Source: an uncultured Aquabacterium sp.
GTDB lineage: Bacteria; Pseudomonadota; Gammaproteobacteria; Burkholderiales; Burkholderiaceae_C
Length of the DNA: 64,000 nt
Direction of reading: 5' to 3'
Assembly (NCBI RefSeq): GCF_947366995.1
Contig: NZ_CANBCC010000005.1
Span: 1 to 64,000 of the forward strand
Part shown: in pieces, positions 11,077 to 17,092 of the stretch
Position numbering within the stretch: the first letter of the stretch is position 1
Layout: each line of letters starts with the position of its first letter
Made by a program: the position numbers and the translations under genes
The notes under the pieces: generated by a model
The model's input: only the letters and a program-made list of their open reading frames with translations
What the model was told of the DNA's origin: nothing
Database searches by the model: none

Positions 11077-13698
11077 ATGAGCAACATCAACACCCAATAC
11101 CGCAAGCCGCTGCCCGGCACGAACCTCGATTATTTCGACACGCAAGCCGCGGTCGAGGCGATCCAGCCCGGCGCCTGGGCCACCCTGCCCTACACCGCCC
11201 GCGTGCACGCCGAGAACATCGTGCGCAAGGCCGACCCGGCCATCGTCACCGATTGCCTCAAGCAGATCGTCGAGCGCAAGCGCGACCTGGACTTCCCCTG
11301 GTTCCCGGCCCGCGTGGCGTGCCACGACATCCTGGGCCAGACCGCCCTGGTCGACCTGGCTGGCCTGCGTGACGCCATCGCCAAGGAAGGCGGCGACCCG
11401 GCCAAGGTGAACCCGGTGGTGCCCGTGCAGTTGATCGTGGACCACTCGCTGGCCGTGGAATGTGGCGGCTTCGACCCGCAAGCCTTCCAGAAGAACCGCG
11501 AGATTGAGGAGCGCCGCAACGAAGACCGCTTCCACTTCATCGAGTGGACCAAGAAGGCCTTCGCCAACGTGGACGTGATCCCCGCAGGCAACGGCATCAT
11601 GCACCAGATCAACCTGGAGAAGATGTCCCCCGTGATCCATGCCGACAACGGCGTGGCCTACCCGGACACCTGCGTCGGCACCGACTCGCACACCCCGCAC
11701 GTGGACGCCTTGGGCGTGATCGCCATTGGCGTGGGCGGCCTGGAAGCCGAGAACGTGATGCTGGGCCGCGCCTCGTGGATGCGCCTGCCTGAAATCGTCG
11801 GTGTGAAGCTGACCGGCCAACGCCAGCCCGGCATCACCGCCACCGATGTGGTGCTGGCCCTGACCGAGTTCCTGCGCAAGAACAAGGTGGTGGGCGCCTA
11901 CCTCGAGTTCTACGGCGAAGGTGCGTCGAAGCTGACGATTGGCGACCGTGCCACCATCTCGAACATGGCCCCCGAATACGGCGCGACCGCCGCCATGTTC
12001 AGCATCGACGAGCAGACGCTGGACTACCTGACGCTGACCGGCCGCACCGCCGAACAGGTCAAGCTGGTCGAGACCTATGCCAAGACCGCGGGCCTGTGGT
12101 CGGATTCGCTGAAGAACGCCGTGTACGAGCGCAACCTGGAGTTCGACCTGTCGAGCGTGGTGCGCAACATGGCCGGCCCGTCGAACCCGCACGCCCGCGT
12201 GGCGACGTCGGATCTGGCCTCGAAGGGCATTGCCGGCCAATGGCAGATGCCGGCTGCCGGTGAAGGCACCATGCCCGACGGCGCCGTGATCATCGCGGCC
12301 ATCACCTCGTGCACCAACACCTCCAACCCGCGCAACGTGATCGCGGCCGCCCTGCTGGCCCGCAACGCCAACAAGCTGGGCCTGACGCGCAAGCCCTGGG
12401 TGAAGTCGTCGCTGGCCCCTGGCTCGAAGGCGGTGGAGCTGTACCTGAAGGAAGCCAACCTGCTGGGCGACCTGGAAAAGCTGGGCTTCGGCATCGTCGC
12501 CTTTGCCTGCACGACCTGCAACGGCATGTCGGGCGCGCTCGATCCGAAGATCCAGCAGGAGATCATCGACCGCGACCTCTACGCCACCGCCGTGCTGTCG
12601 GGCAACCGCAACTTCGACGGCCGCATCCACCCGTATGCCAAACAGGCCTTCCTGGCCTCGCCCCCGCTGGTCGTTGCCTACGCCATCGCCGGCACCGTGC
12701 GCTTCGACATCGAAAACGACGTGCTGACCGTGGTCGACGGCAAGGAAATCCGCCTCAAGGACATCTGGCCTTCGGATGAAGAGATCGACGCCGTGGTGAA
12801 GGCCGCCGTGAAGCCCGAGCAGTACCGTGCCGTGTACGAGCCCATGTTCGCGATTCAAGCCGACAAGGGCGAGAAGGTGAGCCCGCAGTACGACTGGCGC
12901 CCGATGTCGACCTACATCCGTCGCCCGCCCTACTGGGATACCGAAGGCGTCGGCGCCCTGGCCGCCAACCCGCGCACGCTGAAAGCCATGCGCCCGCTGG
13001 CCATCCTGCCGGACAACATCACGACCGACCACCTGTCGCCGTCGAACGCCATCCTGCCGAACTCGGCGGCGGGCGAGTACCTGCACAAGATGGGCCTGCC
13101 GGAAGAGGACTACAACTCCTACGCCACCCACCGCGGCGACCACCTGACCGCGATGCGCGCCACCTTCGCCAACCCCACGCTCAAGAACGAGATGGTGCGC
13201 AAGGAAGACGGCAGCATCAAGGTGGGCTCGTGGGCCCGCGTGGAGCCCGAAGGCCAGGTGATGCGCATGTGGGAGGCCATGGAGACCTACCTCAACCGCC
13301 GCCAGCCGCTGATCATCATCGCCGGTGCCGACTACGGTCAGGGCTCGTCGCGTGACTGGGCCGCCAAGGGTGTGCGTCTGGCCGGTGTGGAAACCGTCGT
13401 GGCCGAAGGCTTCGAGCGCATCCACCGCACCAACCTGATCGGCATGGGCGTGCTGCCGCTGGAGTTCAAGCCGGGCACCACCCGCCTGACCCTGGGCCTG
13501 GACGGCACCGAAACCTTCGACGTCGAAGGCGACCTCAAGCCCCGCGCCGACCTGACCCTGGTGATCCACCGCAAGAACGGTCAGACCGAGCGCGTGACCG
13601 TGACCAGCCGCCTGGACACCGCCGAAGAGGTGTCGGTGTACGAAGCCGGTGGCGTGCTGCAGCGTTTCGCCCAGGACTTCCTGGCGGCGAACAAGTGA
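11077..13698 (+). CDS. acnD: 2-Methylcitrate dehydratase AcnD (Fe/S-dependent)
   Basis: Aconitase-type enzyme that dehydrates 2-methylcitrate to 2-methyl-aconitate in organisms that lack PrpD. The 873 residues begin with the AcnD-typical NLDYFDTQAAVEAI block. Fe-S ligands lie in [10 protein letters not shown] and in FACTTCNG. The C-terminal swivel domain contains [13 protein letters not shown]. No prpD is present here, and prpF, the isomerase that partners AcnD, lies downstream. The order acnD-prpF is broken by three unrelated genes. The start at 11077 is chosen over an in-frame upstream extension because it matches family N-termini. Confidence 0.95.
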   Translation: MSNINTQYRKPLPGTNLDYFDTQAAVEAIQPGAWATLPYTARVHAENIVRKADPAIVTDCLKQIVERKRDLDFPWFPARVACHDILGQTALVDLAGLRDAIAKEGGDPAKVNPVVPVQLIVDHSLAVECGGFDPQAFQKNREIEERRNEDRFHFIEWTKKAFANVDVIPAGNGIMHQINLEKMSPVIHADNGVAYPDTCVGTDSHTPHVDALGVIAIGVGGLEAENVMLGRASWMRLPEIVGVKLTGQRQPGITATDVVLALTEFLRKNKVVGAYLEFYGEGASKLTIGDRATISNMAPEYGATAAMFSIDEQTLDYLTLTGRTAEQVKLVETYAKTAGLWSDSLKNAVYERNLEFDLSSVVRNMAGPSNPHARVATSDLASKGIAGQWQMPAAGEGTMPDGAVIIAAITSCTNTSNPRNVIAAALLARNANKLGLTRKPWVKSSLAPGSKAVELYLKEANLLGDLEKLGFGIVAFACTTCNGMSGALDPKIQQEIIDRDLYATAVLSGNRNFDGRIHPYAKQAFLASPPLVVAYAIAGTVRFDIENDVLTVVDGKEIRLKDIWPSDEEIDAVVKAAVKPEQYRAVYEPMFAIQADKGEKVSPQYDWRPMSTYIRRPPYWDTEGVGALAANPRTLKAMRPLAILPDNITTDHLSPSNAILPNSAAGEYLHKMGLPEEDYNSYATHRGDHLTAMRATFANPTLKNEMVRKEDGSIKVGSWARVEPEGQVMRMWEAMETYLNRRQPLIIIAGADYGQGSSRDWAAKGVRLAGVETVVAEGFERIHRTNLIGMGVLPLEFKPGTTRLTLGLDGTETFDVEGDLKPRADLTLVIHRKNGQTERVTVTSRLDTAEEVSVYEAGGVLQRFAQDFLAANK

Positions 13699-13711
13699 CC
13701 TCTCCGAGCGC

Positions 13712-13774
13712 CTTCGCCTCCCACAAGGAGGCGGAGCCCGGGCAAGCAAAGTCCACGAGGCTTTGCTTGCCTGG
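13712..13774 (+). other. Two tandem hairpins between acnD and the ATPase gene
   Basis: The first stem pairs 13712-13721 with 13727-13736 (CGCCTCC/GGAGGCG core, one G-U pair) around a 5-base loop. The second is stronger: 13738-13751 pairs with 13761-13774 (GGCAAGCAAAG/CTTTGCTTGCC core) around a 9-base loop, 14 pairs with one G-U. No T run follows. They fill most of the 109-nt gap before the ATPase start at 13808, and could be processing sites or barriers that set downstream expression. Confidence 0.7.
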
Positions 13775-13807
13775 CGGTGGCCGGGCCCCGTTCGCAAACC
13801 CGAAACC

Positions 13808-14644
13808 ATGCTGACTTCTCTGCGCATCCGTCACTTCCGAGCCTGGCAAGACACCGGGCCCGTGCGGCTCGCGCCGCTCACCGTGTTCTTCGGTGAGCAC
13901 GGCACCGGCAAGAGCAGCCTGGGCCATGCACTGGCCCTGCTGGATCGGCACGCCCACGCGGCGGTGTCTGACCAGCAGGCTGGCTTTGCGCTGGATGCGG
14001 TGTGGCAAGCCGGCGGTCTGCGTGTCAGTCGACACCTTTCCGCGGCATCGGCGCCTGAGCCCACGCCAGCCACCCTCACCTTTGTCGACACCGAGGCACA
14101 GGGAAGCCGCATCCCGCTGCCTTCGGCCGGCGACCCGGCCGCGTCGCACTGGCTGCACGCCATGGGCCTGGATGCGCCCTCGACGGCCTCGCAAACCGGC
14201 CGCAGTGCCCGCCATGCGCGGCACCTGCTGGCGAACCTCTTCGACACCCCGCACGGTGGCACGGTGTGGCTCGAGCACCCCGAGGCCCACCTGCATCCCA
14301 AGGCCCAGGCCGTGCTGGCCGACGCCCTGATTGCGGCGGTCCAGGCGACGGCCACAGGGGATCGCCCGGGCGTTCAGTGCATCGTCGAGAGCCACTCCGA
14401 AGCCCTGCTCAACCGCCTGCAGCGCCGCGTGGCCGAAGCGGTGATCCCGCCCGACGACCTCGCGCTGTACGTGTGCCGCCTGCGCGGCCCGCATGCCGAA
14501 CTGGAAGCGCTGCGGCTCAACGCCTATGGCGACATCGAGAACTGGCCCGAAGACCTCTTCGGCCACGACATGACCGACATCACCGCCCGCACGCTGGCCG
14601 CCCTGCGCCGCCGCCAGGCCGACACCGGGGAGCCCCGGGCATGA
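13808..14644 (+). CDS. Compact P-loop ATPase (AAA_15/21 or DUF3696-like, OLD/SMC-related)
   Basis: Predicted ABC/SMC-class ATPase of 278 residues. It starts LTSLRIRHFRAWQDTGPV, the N-terminal strand typical of OLD- and DUF3696-type ATPases. Walker A is GEHGTGKSS (about 29-37). Near the C-terminus LEHPEAHLHPKAQA gives the Walker B and D-loop pattern, and IVESHSEALLNRLQRR the switch histidine. The last part (PPDDLALYVCRL, then ENWPEDLFGHD) matches the DUF3696 tail. Relatives are usually 350-450 residues, so the middle is strongly shortened. It is first of three genes joined by ATGA overlaps, inside the prp operon. Function unknown; a nuclease- or defence-linked sensor ATPase is an inference. 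Confidence 0.75.
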   Translation: MLTSLRIRHFRAWQDTGPVRLAPLTVFFGEHGTGKSSLGHALALLDRHAHAAVSDQQAGFALDAVWQAGGLRVSRHLSAASAPEPTPATLTFVDTEAQGSRIPLPSAGDPAASHWLHAMGLDAPSTASQTGRSARHARHLLANLFDTPHGGTVWLEHPEAHLHPKAQAVLADALIAAVQATATGDRPGVQCIVESHSEALLNRLQRRVAEAVIPPDDLALYVCRLRGPHAELEALRLNAYGDIENWPEDLFGHDMTDITARTLAALRRRQADTGEPRA

Positions 14645-15189
14645 AGGCGGTGATCGACACCAACGTGCTGCTGGTGGCCAATGGCCAGCATGCGGACGTT
14701 TCGCCCGGCTGCGTGGCCGCCTGTGTAGAGCGACTGCAAGCCATGCAGTCCGGCGGCGTGACGGTCATCGACGACGGCCATCGCATCCTGGACGAGTACC
14801 TGCACAAGACCCAGGTCAACCGCCCCAAGGGCGTCGGCGACGTGTTCCTGAAATGGCTGCTTCGCCAGGTGGCCAATCCTCAGCGCGTCGAACAGGTGCC
14901 ACTGACGGAGACCGGCGAGCAGACCTACGCCGAGTTCCCATCGACCGCCCTGCAACCCCGCTTCGACCCATCCGACCGCAAGTTCGCCGCCGTCGCCCAC
15001 GCCCACCCCGACAAGCCGCCCATCTGGGAAGCCGCCGACAGCAAGTGGCTGGACTGGTGGCCGGCCCTCAAGGCCTGCGGCGTGCAGGTCGAGTTTCTCT
15101 GCCCCGAAGACACGTGCGACTTCTACCGCAAGAAGTTTCCGGACCACCCGCTTCCGCCGCTGCCTCGCGCACCGGCCACCTCAGCATGA
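14641..15189 (+). CDS. PIN-like domain protein (putative RNase)
   Basis: A 182-residue protein that looks like a PIN-fold nuclease. The opening KAVIDTNVLLVAN is the classical first strand with Asp6. Further acidic positions fall as in PIN domains: Glu52 in ILDEYLHK, Asp112 in DPSDRKFAAVA and Asp133 in EAADSKWLDW. PIN proteins cut RNA with Mg or Mn, commonly as VapC toxins, but this one is longer than VapC and has no antitoxin-like gene beside it. Its ATG overlaps the ATPase stop (ATGA at 14641-14644), and its stop overlaps the ligase start, so translation is coupled. Family assignment rests on motif spacing only. Confidence 0.7.
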   Translation: MKAVIDTNVLLVANGQHADVSPGCVAACVERLQAMQSGGVTVIDDGHRILDEYLHKTQVNRPKGVGDVFLKWLLRQVANPQRVEQVPLTETGEQTYAEFPSTALQPRFDPSDRKFAAVAHAHPDKPPIWEAADSKWLDWWPALKACGVQVEFLCPEDTCDFYRKKFPDHPLPPLPRAPATSA

Positions 15190-15884
15190 CGGATTTCTTT
15201 CGCTTTCCGCACACCCCGCACATCGCTTGGCTGGCTGCCGGCGAACCGCGCGAGGACAAGGTGATGTCGCCCGCCGAAGTCAGCGACCTGCTGGCCCATG
15301 ATGTCGTGGTCGAAGAGAAGCTCGACGGCGCGAACCTCGGCTTCTCGCTCGACGAGCACGGCGAGTTGCGTGCGCAGAACCGCGGGCAGTATCTGAGCGA
15401 TCCGCACGCCGGCCAGTTCGCCCGCATCCCGATGTGGCTGCAGCAGCATGGCGACGCCTTGCTGGCCGAGCTGACACCGGACCTCATCTTCTTCGGCGAA
15501 TGGTGCGCCGCGCGCCACTCGCTGGACTATGGCGCCCTGCCCGACTGGTTCCTGCTGTTCGACGTGTACGAACGCAGCCAGGGCCGCTTCTGGAGCACCG
15601 CCCGCCGCAATGCGCTGGCCGCCCGCGCCGGCCTGGTCACCGTGCCCCGCCTGTTCGAGGGCCACACCACACTGGACGCGCTCAAGCTCATGGTGTCCAG
15701 CACCCCGAGTCGCTACCGCAACGGCCCGCTCGAAGGCATGGTGATCCGCCACGAATCCGAAACCTGGTGTGAAAACCGCGCCAAGCTCGTGCGCCCCGAT
15801 TTCACCCAGGCCATCGACACCCACTGGCGCAAACGCGCCATCGAATGGAACCGCGTCGACCACGATGCGGCCTACCGCAACTGA
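15186..15884 (+). CDS. RNA ligase family protein
   Basis: ATP-dependent ligase of the covalent nucleotidyltransferase superfamily, RNA_ligase type, 232 residues. Motif I is EEKLDGAN with Lys45 as the expected AMP-accepting residue. FFGEWCAARH fits motif III, FLLFDVYER motif IIIa, LEGMVIRHE motif IV and AKLVRPDF motif V. It is little more than a nucleotidyltransferase domain; T4 Rnl2-like ligases carry an extra C-terminal domain of about 80 residues. It starts at the ATGA shared with the PIN-like gene, and prpF begins 20 nt after its stop. RNA repair after cleavage by the neighbouring PIN-like protein is an inference. Confidence 0.85.
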   Translation: MTDFFRFPHTPHIAWLAAGEPREDKVMSPAEVSDLLAHDVVVEEKLDGANLGFSLDEHGELRAQNRGQYLSDPHAGQFARIPMWLQQHGDALLAELTPDLIFFGEWCAARHSLDYGALPDWFLLFDVYERSQGRFWSTARRNALAARAGLVTVPRLFEGHTTLDALKLMVSSTPSRYRNGPLEGMVIRHESETWCENRAKLVRPDFTQAIDTHWRKRAIEWNRVDHDAAYRN

Positions 15885-15904
15885 CCTCTCCACCGGACAC
15901 AGCC

Positions 15905-17092
15905 ATGGCACACGCACCCCAAGTCAAGATCCCGGCCACCTACATCCGCGGCGGCACCAGCAAGGGCGTCTTCTTCCGCCTGCAGGACCTCCCCGCAGCC
16001 TGCCAGGTGCCCGGCGAAGCGCGCGACAAGCTGTTCCTGCGCGTCATCGGCAGCCCCGACCCGTACGCGGCCCACATCGACGGCATGGGCGGCGCCACGT
16101 CCAGCACCAGCAAGTGCGTGATCCTGTCGAAGGCCAGCCAGCCCGACCACGATGTGGACTACCTCTATGGCCAGATCTCGATCGACAAGCCCTTCGTGGA
16201 CTGGTCCGGCAACTGCGGCAACCTGTCCACCGCCGCGGGCGCCTTCGCGATCCACGCCGGCCTGGTCGACCCGGCCCGCATCCCGCAGAACGGCACGGCC
16301 GTGGTTCGCATCTGGCAGGCCAACATCGGCAAGACCATCATCGCGCACGTGCCCGTCACCAACGGCCAGGTGCAGGAAACCGGTGATTTCGAGCTCGATG
16401 GCGTGACCTTCCCGGCCGCTGAGATCGTGCTCGAGTTCATGGACCCATCCGACGATGGCGACGAAGGCGGCTCGATGTTCCCGACCGGCAACCTGGTGGA
16501 CGACCTTGAGGTGCCCGGCATCGGCATGCTGAAGGCCACGATGATCACGGCCGGCATCCCCACCGTGTTCGTCAATGCCAAGGACATCGGCTACACCGGC
16601 ACCGAACTGCGCGAGCACATCAACAGCGACGCCGAGGCCCTCAAGCGCTTCGAAGCCATCCGCGTGGCCGGCGCCTTGCGCATGGGCCTCATCAAGACAC
16701 CCGAAGAAGCCGCCACGCGCCAGCACACGCCCAAGATCGCCTTCGTGGCACCGCCCACCACCTACACCGCGTCCAGCGGCAAGACCATCGAAGCGGTGGA
16801 CGTCGACCTGCTGGTGCGCGCGCTGTCGATGGGCAAGCTGCACCACGCCATGATGGGCACCTGTGCGGTGGCGATCGGCACGGCAGCCGCCATCCCCGGC
16901 ACGCTGGTCAACCAGGCCGCTGGCGGCGGCGAGCGCGAAGCCGTGCGCTTCGGCCACCCCTCCGGCACGCTGCGTGTGGGGGCCCAGGCCGCACAGGTCA
17001 ACGGCCAGTGGACGGTCACCAAGGCCATCATGAGCCGCAGCGCCCGCATCCTCATGGAGGGCTGGGTGCGCGTGCCGGGCGACACGTTCTGA
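15905..17092 (+). CDS. prpF: 2-Methylaconitate cis-trans isomerase PrpF
   Basis: Isomerises the 2-methyl-aconitate made by AcnD so that an aconitase can hydrate it to 2-methylisocitrate. The 395 residues open with ATYIRGGTSKGVFFR, the PrpF hallmark. DGMGGATSSTSK and DWSGNCGNLS are further family blocks of the diaminopimelate-epimerase-like fold. It closes the methylcitrate pathway with prpB, prpC and acnD, and normally follows acnD directly. Here it sits 20 nt after the RNA ligase gene and is probably co-transcribed with that trio. Confidence 0.96.
   Translation: MAHAPQVKIPATYIRGGTSKGVFFRLQDLPAACQVPGEARDKLFLRVIGSPDPYAAHIDGMGGATSSTSKCVILSKASQPDHDVDYLYGQISIDKPFVDWSGNCGNLSTAAGAFAIHAGLVDPARIPQNGTAVVRIWQANIGKTIIAHVPVTNGQVQETGDFELDGVTFPAAEIVLEFMDPSDDGDEGGSMFPTGNLVDDLEVPGIGMLKATMITAGIPTVFVNAKDIGYTGTELREHINSDAEALKRFEAIRVAGALRMGLIKTPEEAATRQHTPKIAFVAPPTTYTASSGKTIEAVDVDLLVRALSMGKLHHAMMGTCAVAIGTAAAIPGTLVNQAAGGGEREAVRFGHPSGTLRVGAQAAQVNGQWTVTKAIMSRSARILMEGWVRVPGDTF

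Follow-up and report, generated by a model that had tools for sequence, protein, structure and literature searches.

A short operon of an uncultured Aquabacterium sp. belongs to a real, recurrent and mobile three-gene module that is made up of the candidate system HEC-03, an ABC-type ATPase followed by a PIN-fold nuclease, and a small ATP-dependent RNA ligase. The genes of this module are co-inherited in a fixed order and tightly coupled, the catalytic residues of the nuclease and the ligase are intact, the history of the ligase is largely independent of the type of ATPase and nuclease that precedes it, and defense genes lie near many copies. We consider the chances about even that the trio is an antiphage or stress module, in which a PIN nuclease gated by the ATPase would cut host RNA and the ligase could reseal it.

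The three-gene locus of Aquabacterium

The window, i.e. the whole stretch of 64,000 nucleotides analyzed here, carries the trio on the forward strand between two genes of the same strand that we take, from the first-pass annotation, to be acnD (11077..13698) and prpF (15905..17092), the left and right host genes of the slot, which lie outside the module. The ATPase gene (13808..14644) is separated from acnD by a spacer of 109 nt (13699..13807), which, judging by the sequence and by the junctions of relatives, is the left edge of the inserted cargo; it encodes a short DUF3696/AAA_15 ABC-type ATPase of 278 aa, a relative of HEC-03B. It is followed by the gene of a PIN-fold nuclease related to HEC-03A (14641..15189; 182 aa) and by that of a small ATP-dependent RNA ligase (15186..15884; PF09414, 232 aa). 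The stop codons of the ATPase and PIN genes overlap the next start codons in ATGA (14641..14644 and 15186..15189, respectively), and prpF begins 20 nt past the ligase gene; this arrangement, described in the first-pass annotation, is borne out by the open reading frames. No Rfam family matches positions 13000-16500 of the window.

The ATPase matches AAA_15 (2.9e-13) and DUF3696 (2e-5) in Pfam, the PADLOC model HEC-03B (7.4e-42, with the match split into two stretches) and the PADLOC model of AriA, a component of PARIS (6.4e-14). It contains all the motifs by which it had been recognized, namely Walker A (GEHGTGKSS), LEHPEAHLHP and IVESHSEALL. What the first-pass annotation had missed is that this protein is ~190 central residues shorter than its relatives, as seen in an alignment with 19 full-length sequences, and that the GFGxSQ signature (DVGFGxSQ) is absent, although the protein retains Walker A, the Walker B Glu and a conserved His. 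Its 278 aa compare with 426-522 aa in 62 complete trios. Because the ATPase is short and devoid of the signature, the window copy should be seen as a reduced relative of HEC-03, not as a typical member, and its ATPase is probably a nucleotide-binding holder, not a normal ABC ATPase.

Modeled with AlphaFold (pLDDT 92.8), the second protein resembles VapC/PIN nucleases, in agreement with the fold previously proposed for it. This protein matches the PADLOC model HEC-03A over residues 1-160 of 182 (3.6e-28) and Pfam weakly (PIN_3, E 0.1); PIN_3 is supported in 22 of 25 loci, a result that replaces an hhalign comparison in which two VapC rows matched weakly (0.6%). Among the acidic positions singled out from the window sequence, Asp6, Glu52 and Asp112 are invariant in all 63 aligned rows, and position 133 is occupied by Asp in 56 rows and by Glu in 7. 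With the PADLOC HEC-03A model, 26 of the 63 aligned PIN proteins fall short of the E 1e-8 threshold.

The third protein matches the Pfam family RNA_ligase (PF09414; 6.6e-34, 117.9 bits, cut-off 27). The ligase motifs that had been read in it (KLDG, III, IV and V) are present as KLDG, FGE, EGMVIR and AKLVR, and Lys45, Glu105, Glu183 and Lys200 are invariant (63/63 aligned rows). None of the PADLOC models matches this protein, and its score with the Rnl3 model TIGR01209 (18.5 bits) lies below the cut-off of 136.9, so it is not an Rnl3 ligase; its alignment against solved structures yielded no confident relative (best E 0.015).

Recurrence and mobility of the trio

Scanning the genome collection for matches to the ligase alignment produced 467 relatives, the best 80 of which were studied. 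PIN and ATPase genes lie directly upstream of the ligase in 68 of these 80 loci, a PIN gene with no ATPase match in 5, and neither gene in 7 (two loci in each of the latter groups are cut by contig ends). Since it recurs in 68 of the best 80 of 467 loci, the order of the trio is more than chance. In an order-level set, the ligase profile matched 15 of 300 genomes, 9 strongly (own genome included) and 6 distantly; seven of the eight strong ligases besides our own belong to a trio and the eighth is cut by a contig end, and the six distant ones have no trio. An even sample of the phylum gave 16 matches in 398 genomes: 12 strong ones (own included), with a trio in 11 and a fragment as the remaining case, and 4 distant ones, none with a trio. 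The conserved module that had been postulated from a single locus thus holds up when homologues are tabulated. Conversely, the HEC-03A PIN matched 11 of 398 genomes (own included), with the ATPase in all 11 and the ligase in 8; as three of these eleven HEC-03 pairs have no ligase, the ligase is not obligatory.

For close study, 62 trios with complete genes were retained from 66 loci in which all three genes could be delimited. The four loci dropped have short ATPases: two (L038 and L039, from records named Aquabacterium, with ligases 98% identical to that of the window) contain the 278-aa form of the window and two others are cut short. Gaps between the genes of the 62 trios range from -20 to +37 nt and from -8 to +22 nt, respectively. 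The module is also carried by plasmids: the trio ligase matched 16 plasmid records, nine at >=45% identity, and the five of these nine that were inspected all show an ATPase gene, an unnamed gene and then the RNA ligase gene. Trio-bearing plasmids include conjugative ones of Aeromonas and of Rhodococcus, a member of another phylum. A sixth plasmid, with a ligase of 33% identity, has a different gene order.

Several distant ligases (L127-L132, L156 and L157) are encoded by open frames of ~300-350 residues, with no PIN or ATPase gene in the fetched flanks, and perhaps represent a separate family. In three other loci (L074:5971-8364, L082 and L093), the ligase gene is followed by a gene that looks AlbA/Schlafen-like by eye, the three being mutually similar; its product is a possible further partner of the ligase.

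The trio had been thought to correspond to no described system. This view requires correction for the ATPase and PIN genes, which already constitute the candidate HEC-03, and stands for the ligase partner in the literature searched: no description of an ATPase-PIN-RNA ligase module, of a regular ligase partnership or of an exchange of ATPase-PIN pairs ahead of a ligase was found there. Payne et al. 2024, who reportedly treat HEC systems, and Burroughs and Aravind 2016, whose subject is said to be RNA repair, may hold such a description or a test of HEC-03.

Defense genes in the neighborhood

A DrmMI/type IIG-like methylase gene is found upstream of 21 of the 62 trios (within the fetched stretch, <=~4 kb), an HNH gene follows the ligase gene within 1.5 kb in 21, and one or both are found in 26, these being raw counts without a matched control; both are absent from the fetched stretch in the other 36 trios. 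When only loci with a visible flank are counted, the methylase is present in 18 of 51 (1 kb upstream), the HNH gene in 19 of 57 (0.9 kb downstream) and either in 20 of 49 (both flanks). At 11 loci, the methylase match stops no more than 118 nt from where the ATPase begins. A short pAgo gene lies upstream of 5 of the 62 trios, accompanied in 4 cases by an Argonaute-associated gene, and on plasmid pAsa9 the trio adjoins AbiEii and Hok/Gef genes. A flank scan that covered 71 of 72 proteins from 19 loci (the one dropped is probably the ATPase itself) returned type I restriction (2 members each), HNH, pAgo and PDC-S28 with the PADLOC models, and many housekeeping families with Pfam. The link to defense that had been offered as a possibility is therefore supported by many copies (26/62 with methylase or HNH, 5/62 with pAgo), as counted without a matched control. 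Within the window, that methylase and that HNH gene are both absent.

In locus L054, the ligase gene immediately follows PD-T4-4 A and B (4.5e-203 and 2e-93), which replace the ATPase-PIN pair; this suggests that the ligase may work with other ATPase-effector pairs as well. The PD-T4-4 A/B-ligase stretch (L054:4008-6741) is located in a restriction-rich island. A search with PD-T4-4_B gave no match in 349 genomes but none in the controls as well, and one record, 43% identical, among plasmids.

Some further candidates were rejected. A phage origin or a counter-defense role is not suggested by the 5 phage records, all below 32% identity, and the 4 IMG/VR contigs, of which a single one is close; integration at tRNA genes is not suggested by the presence of any tRNA in the fetched stretch of 6 of 62 loci only. 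The idea of a conserved noncoding RNA next to the trio was discarded as well, since the flanking DNA similarity, where followed, corresponds to the last part of the methylase gene and to the beginning of the HNH gene. A search of E. coli gave 153 records, none spanning 80% of the query, and the 10 matches listed comprise an IS3 stretch only.

Two ATPase-PIN types and one ligase

The ATPases and PIN proteins of the 62 trios fall into two deep types (35 of type I, to which the window belongs, and 27 of type II). Mean distances within type I, within type II and between the types are 0.33, 0.41 and 0.67 for the ATPase and 0.34, 0.51 and 0.73 for PIN, compared with 0.34, 0.32 and 0.34 for the ligase (62 trios). 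A single branch of the PIN tree separates the types with 100/100 support, in an analysis with an unsettled bootstrap and long-branch warnings. The ligase tree requires 17 changes of type vs a mean of 20.6 in shuffled data (30 of 500 shuffles are as low), and at least 11 of the 17 are forced by well supported branches; the loci were picked by ligase similarity, which favors similar ligases and does not alone create such interleaving. Over all 62 trios, distances are correlated at 0.85 for ATPase and PIN, 0.23 for ATPase and ligase and 0.13 for PIN and ligase, and inside one type the correlations among the three genes are 0.29-0.67, which indicates that the partners co-travel for a time.

The boundaries of this change are visible in DNA. 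In seven of seven pairs of loci of types I and II (or with mixed partners), similarity restarts no more than 12 nt from where the ligase begins. To the left, three pairs show similarity in the methylase and none in ATPase or PIN, three share a stretch of 72-110 nt that spans the ATPase start and one has no match; one of the seven has an extra 87-nt match within the ATPase. Two Variovorax loci, L047 of type II and L053 of type I, show 88% similarity on both sides and none between. Judging by sequence comparison, the ligase seems to stay constant while the ATPase-PIN pairs next to it are swapped.

The same data lend themselves to another reading, which we regard as unlikely: the ligase would be a constant part of a methylase-HNH island and not the repair partner of PIN, and the ATPase-PIN pairs, once replaced by PD-T4-4, would be interchangeable cassettes. 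The return of similarity at the ligase start in 7/7 pairs, the break-off of the left similarity within the methylase region or at its end in three of them, the equal ligase distances within and between types and the occupation of the pre-ligase slot by PD-T4-4 in L054 all agree with it. It is at odds with the 72-110 nt of similarity across the ATPase start in 3/7 pairs and the 87-nt match within the ATPase, with the lack of such a methylase or HNH gene in 36/62 trios, in the five plasmid copies inspected and in the window, and with the persistence of PIN and ligase alone in relatives.

Relatives without the ATPase

In the genus, the ligase occurs in 19 of 37 genomes: 3 have the window form, 1 (G004) a full trio elsewhere and 15 PIN and ligase only, and in 14 of these 15 the pair occupies one chromosomal place (flanks compared by eye). 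The loci of the latter group (L023-L037) have an amidohydrolase-like gene nearby in 14 of 15 cases, as named by eye, and in L034, L036 and L037 a transporter-like gene comes next after the ligase. The full ATPase was searched for in 34 of the 37 genomes, and none was found at E 1e-8 in the 14 two-gene genomes covered; a partial match (5.7e-22) was found in G025, which has no ligase. Type II-like PIN and ligase genes with similar flanks and no ATPase were also seen in L087, L089 and L090 (two Pseudohongiella records and gammaproteobacterium LSUCC0112). Given these relatives, gating by the ATPase is not universal.

Such loci bring up a PIN-ligase pair for RNA processing, e.g. for trimming and circularizing a specific RNA, like the proposed HARP-Rnl3 pair, with the ATPase as an accessory. 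The upkeep of the ATPase-free pair at one place in 14/15 two-gene relatives (by eye) speaks for it, as does a published partnership of a PIN_5 nuclease with an RNA ligase (PMC12153264); nevertheless, the patchy spread of the ligase (15/300 and 16/398 genomes, distant ligases included), the plasmid copies, the defense neighbors and a TIGR01209 score far below the Rnl3 cut-off make this reading rather improbable.

The acnD-prpF slot and the short ATPase

Among 29 trio-free genomes, acnD and prpF lie within ~40 nt of each other in 13, are separated by a spacer of ~145 nt in 5 and enclose other genes in 11 (one of which, G017, has a contig that starts inside the cargo genes). The cargo, named by eye, includes VapBC-like pairs in three relatives (L205, L206 and L207), and membrane-protein pairs (L197-L199), lipase/protease-like genes (L200), chemoreceptor-like genes (L201 and L202) and a membrane protein of 267-276 aa (L203 and L204) were also noticed. 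The acnD-prpF site is thus a cargo slot. A functional link to the methylcitrate operon, entertained in the first-pass annotation, is not supported, because the junction in relatives holds varied cargo or nothing. The ~145-nt spacer in L171, L178, L180, L187 and L190 contains CTCCCCCTCAAGGGGGCG or a near variant, and the window spacer (13699-13807) has a repeat-like look; an element in the spacer possibly marks the slot.

The VapBC-like pairs in this slot, together with the VapC fold of the PIN protein and the plasmid copies, would fit a toxin-antitoxin system, with PIN as a VapC-like toxin, the ligase or the ATPase as the antidote, and maintenance of a plasmid or locus instead of defense as the outcome. 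We hold this to be improbable, as a VapB-like partner is absent and a large ABC ATPase is present in the complete trios and in 11/11 HEC-03A genomes, the window having the short form.

In G007 and G013, the acnD-prpF junction holds the same 278-aa form of the ATPase, and the reading frame of this form is open in three species. Against G013, dN/dS is 0.305 for the ATPase, 0.124 for PIN and 0.301 for the ligase; two pairs with G013 give 0.305 and 0.313 for the ATPase, and the G000-G007 pair gives 0.73, from 6 changes only. For PIN and ligase, dN/dS is about 0.10-0.30 across three species pairs, and the named motifs are unchanged. By these ratios, purifying selection keeps the short ATPase open in the three related species. 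That the window module is a decaying remnant, as the loss of ~190 residues and of the signature motif and the G000-G007 value could indicate, has accordingly only a slim chance in view of the form that stays open in three species, the other dN/dS values and the unchanged motifs.

Proposed mechanism

Several defense systems stop translation through the cutting of tRNA, which is usually viewed as costly or suicidal. In the antiphage or stress module proposed here, the ABC-type ATPase, in its complete form, would hold the PIN nuclease and act as the sensor, and upon a trigger it would release or activate the nuclease. The latter would cut structured host RNA, most likely tRNA, and leave 3'-OH and 5'-phosphate ends, as expected from knowledge of the PIN family. 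In this superfamily, ATP-dependent ligases seal 3'-OH ends to 5'-phosphate ends, so the ligase could reverse the cut with no kinase and no end-healing enzymes. By joining such ends, it might repair leaky cutting in healthy cells or restore translation after the alarm.

A more specific version of this proposal, to which we give somewhat less than an even chance, is an immune module that brings its own undo enzyme, with growth arrest being reversible, the ligase constant and the sensor-nuclease pairs exchanged. If this is true, the presence of a cutter and a sealer in one coupled operon makes reversible immunity directly testable, a role is suggested for a family of small RNA ligases whose genes so often follow ATPase-nuclease pairs, and a third gene is added to a candidate system that has been modeled with two. 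In two antiphage systems, DS-3 and DS-5, the PIN nucleases are essential (PMC13092281), and VapC enzymes cut tRNA or rRNA (PMC5408214).

Comparison with known systems

HEC-03 (in PADLOC, Hma-embedded candidate 03, with genes A and B) resembles the trio in that both models match, in the order ATPase-PIN, and a large methylase gene lies upstream in 21/62 complete trios; it differs in that PADLOC has no model for the ligase and the window ATPase is devoid of the centre of the B model. The accessible text of PMC12988326 explains the term Hma-embedded candidate and reports that several HECs, including HEC-06, are antiviral, with HEC-03 not named in that text, and in the accessible text of PMC13356809 HEC-03 is merely listed, for rumen genomes. 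PD-T4-4 shares with the trio the design of an ATPase-effector pair and, in L054, the place ahead of the ligase, whereas its effector and ATPase come from different families. In contrast to VapBC, the trio has no adjacent VapB, and the neighbors of the PIN gene are the ATPase and the ligase.

HARP, a PIN_5 nuclease, and the RNA ligase Rnl3 are published partners and, like the trio, tie a PIN-superfamily nuclease to an ATP-dependent RNA ligase; as far as the available portion of PMC12153264 goes, they differ by another ligase family, another gene order with a usually opposite orientation, occurrence mostly in extremophiles and no mention of an ATPase. PARIS, with the AriA ATPase and the AriB Toprim tRNA nuclease, also combines an ABC-type ATPase with an RNA nuclease, but the trio has PIN instead of Toprim (AriB is absent) and a ligase in addition. 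Cutting of tRNA by AriB leaves a 3'-OH end, as demonstrated in PMC12409363, and a 5'-phosphate is expected by its authors. The same source cites the PrrC anticodon nuclease and phage T4 Pnk/Rnl1, where RNA is cut in defense and then resealed by a ligase, as is predicted for the trio. In that case the repair is encoded by the phage, whereas the ligase of the trio is encoded together with the nuclease and has no kinase gene beside it.
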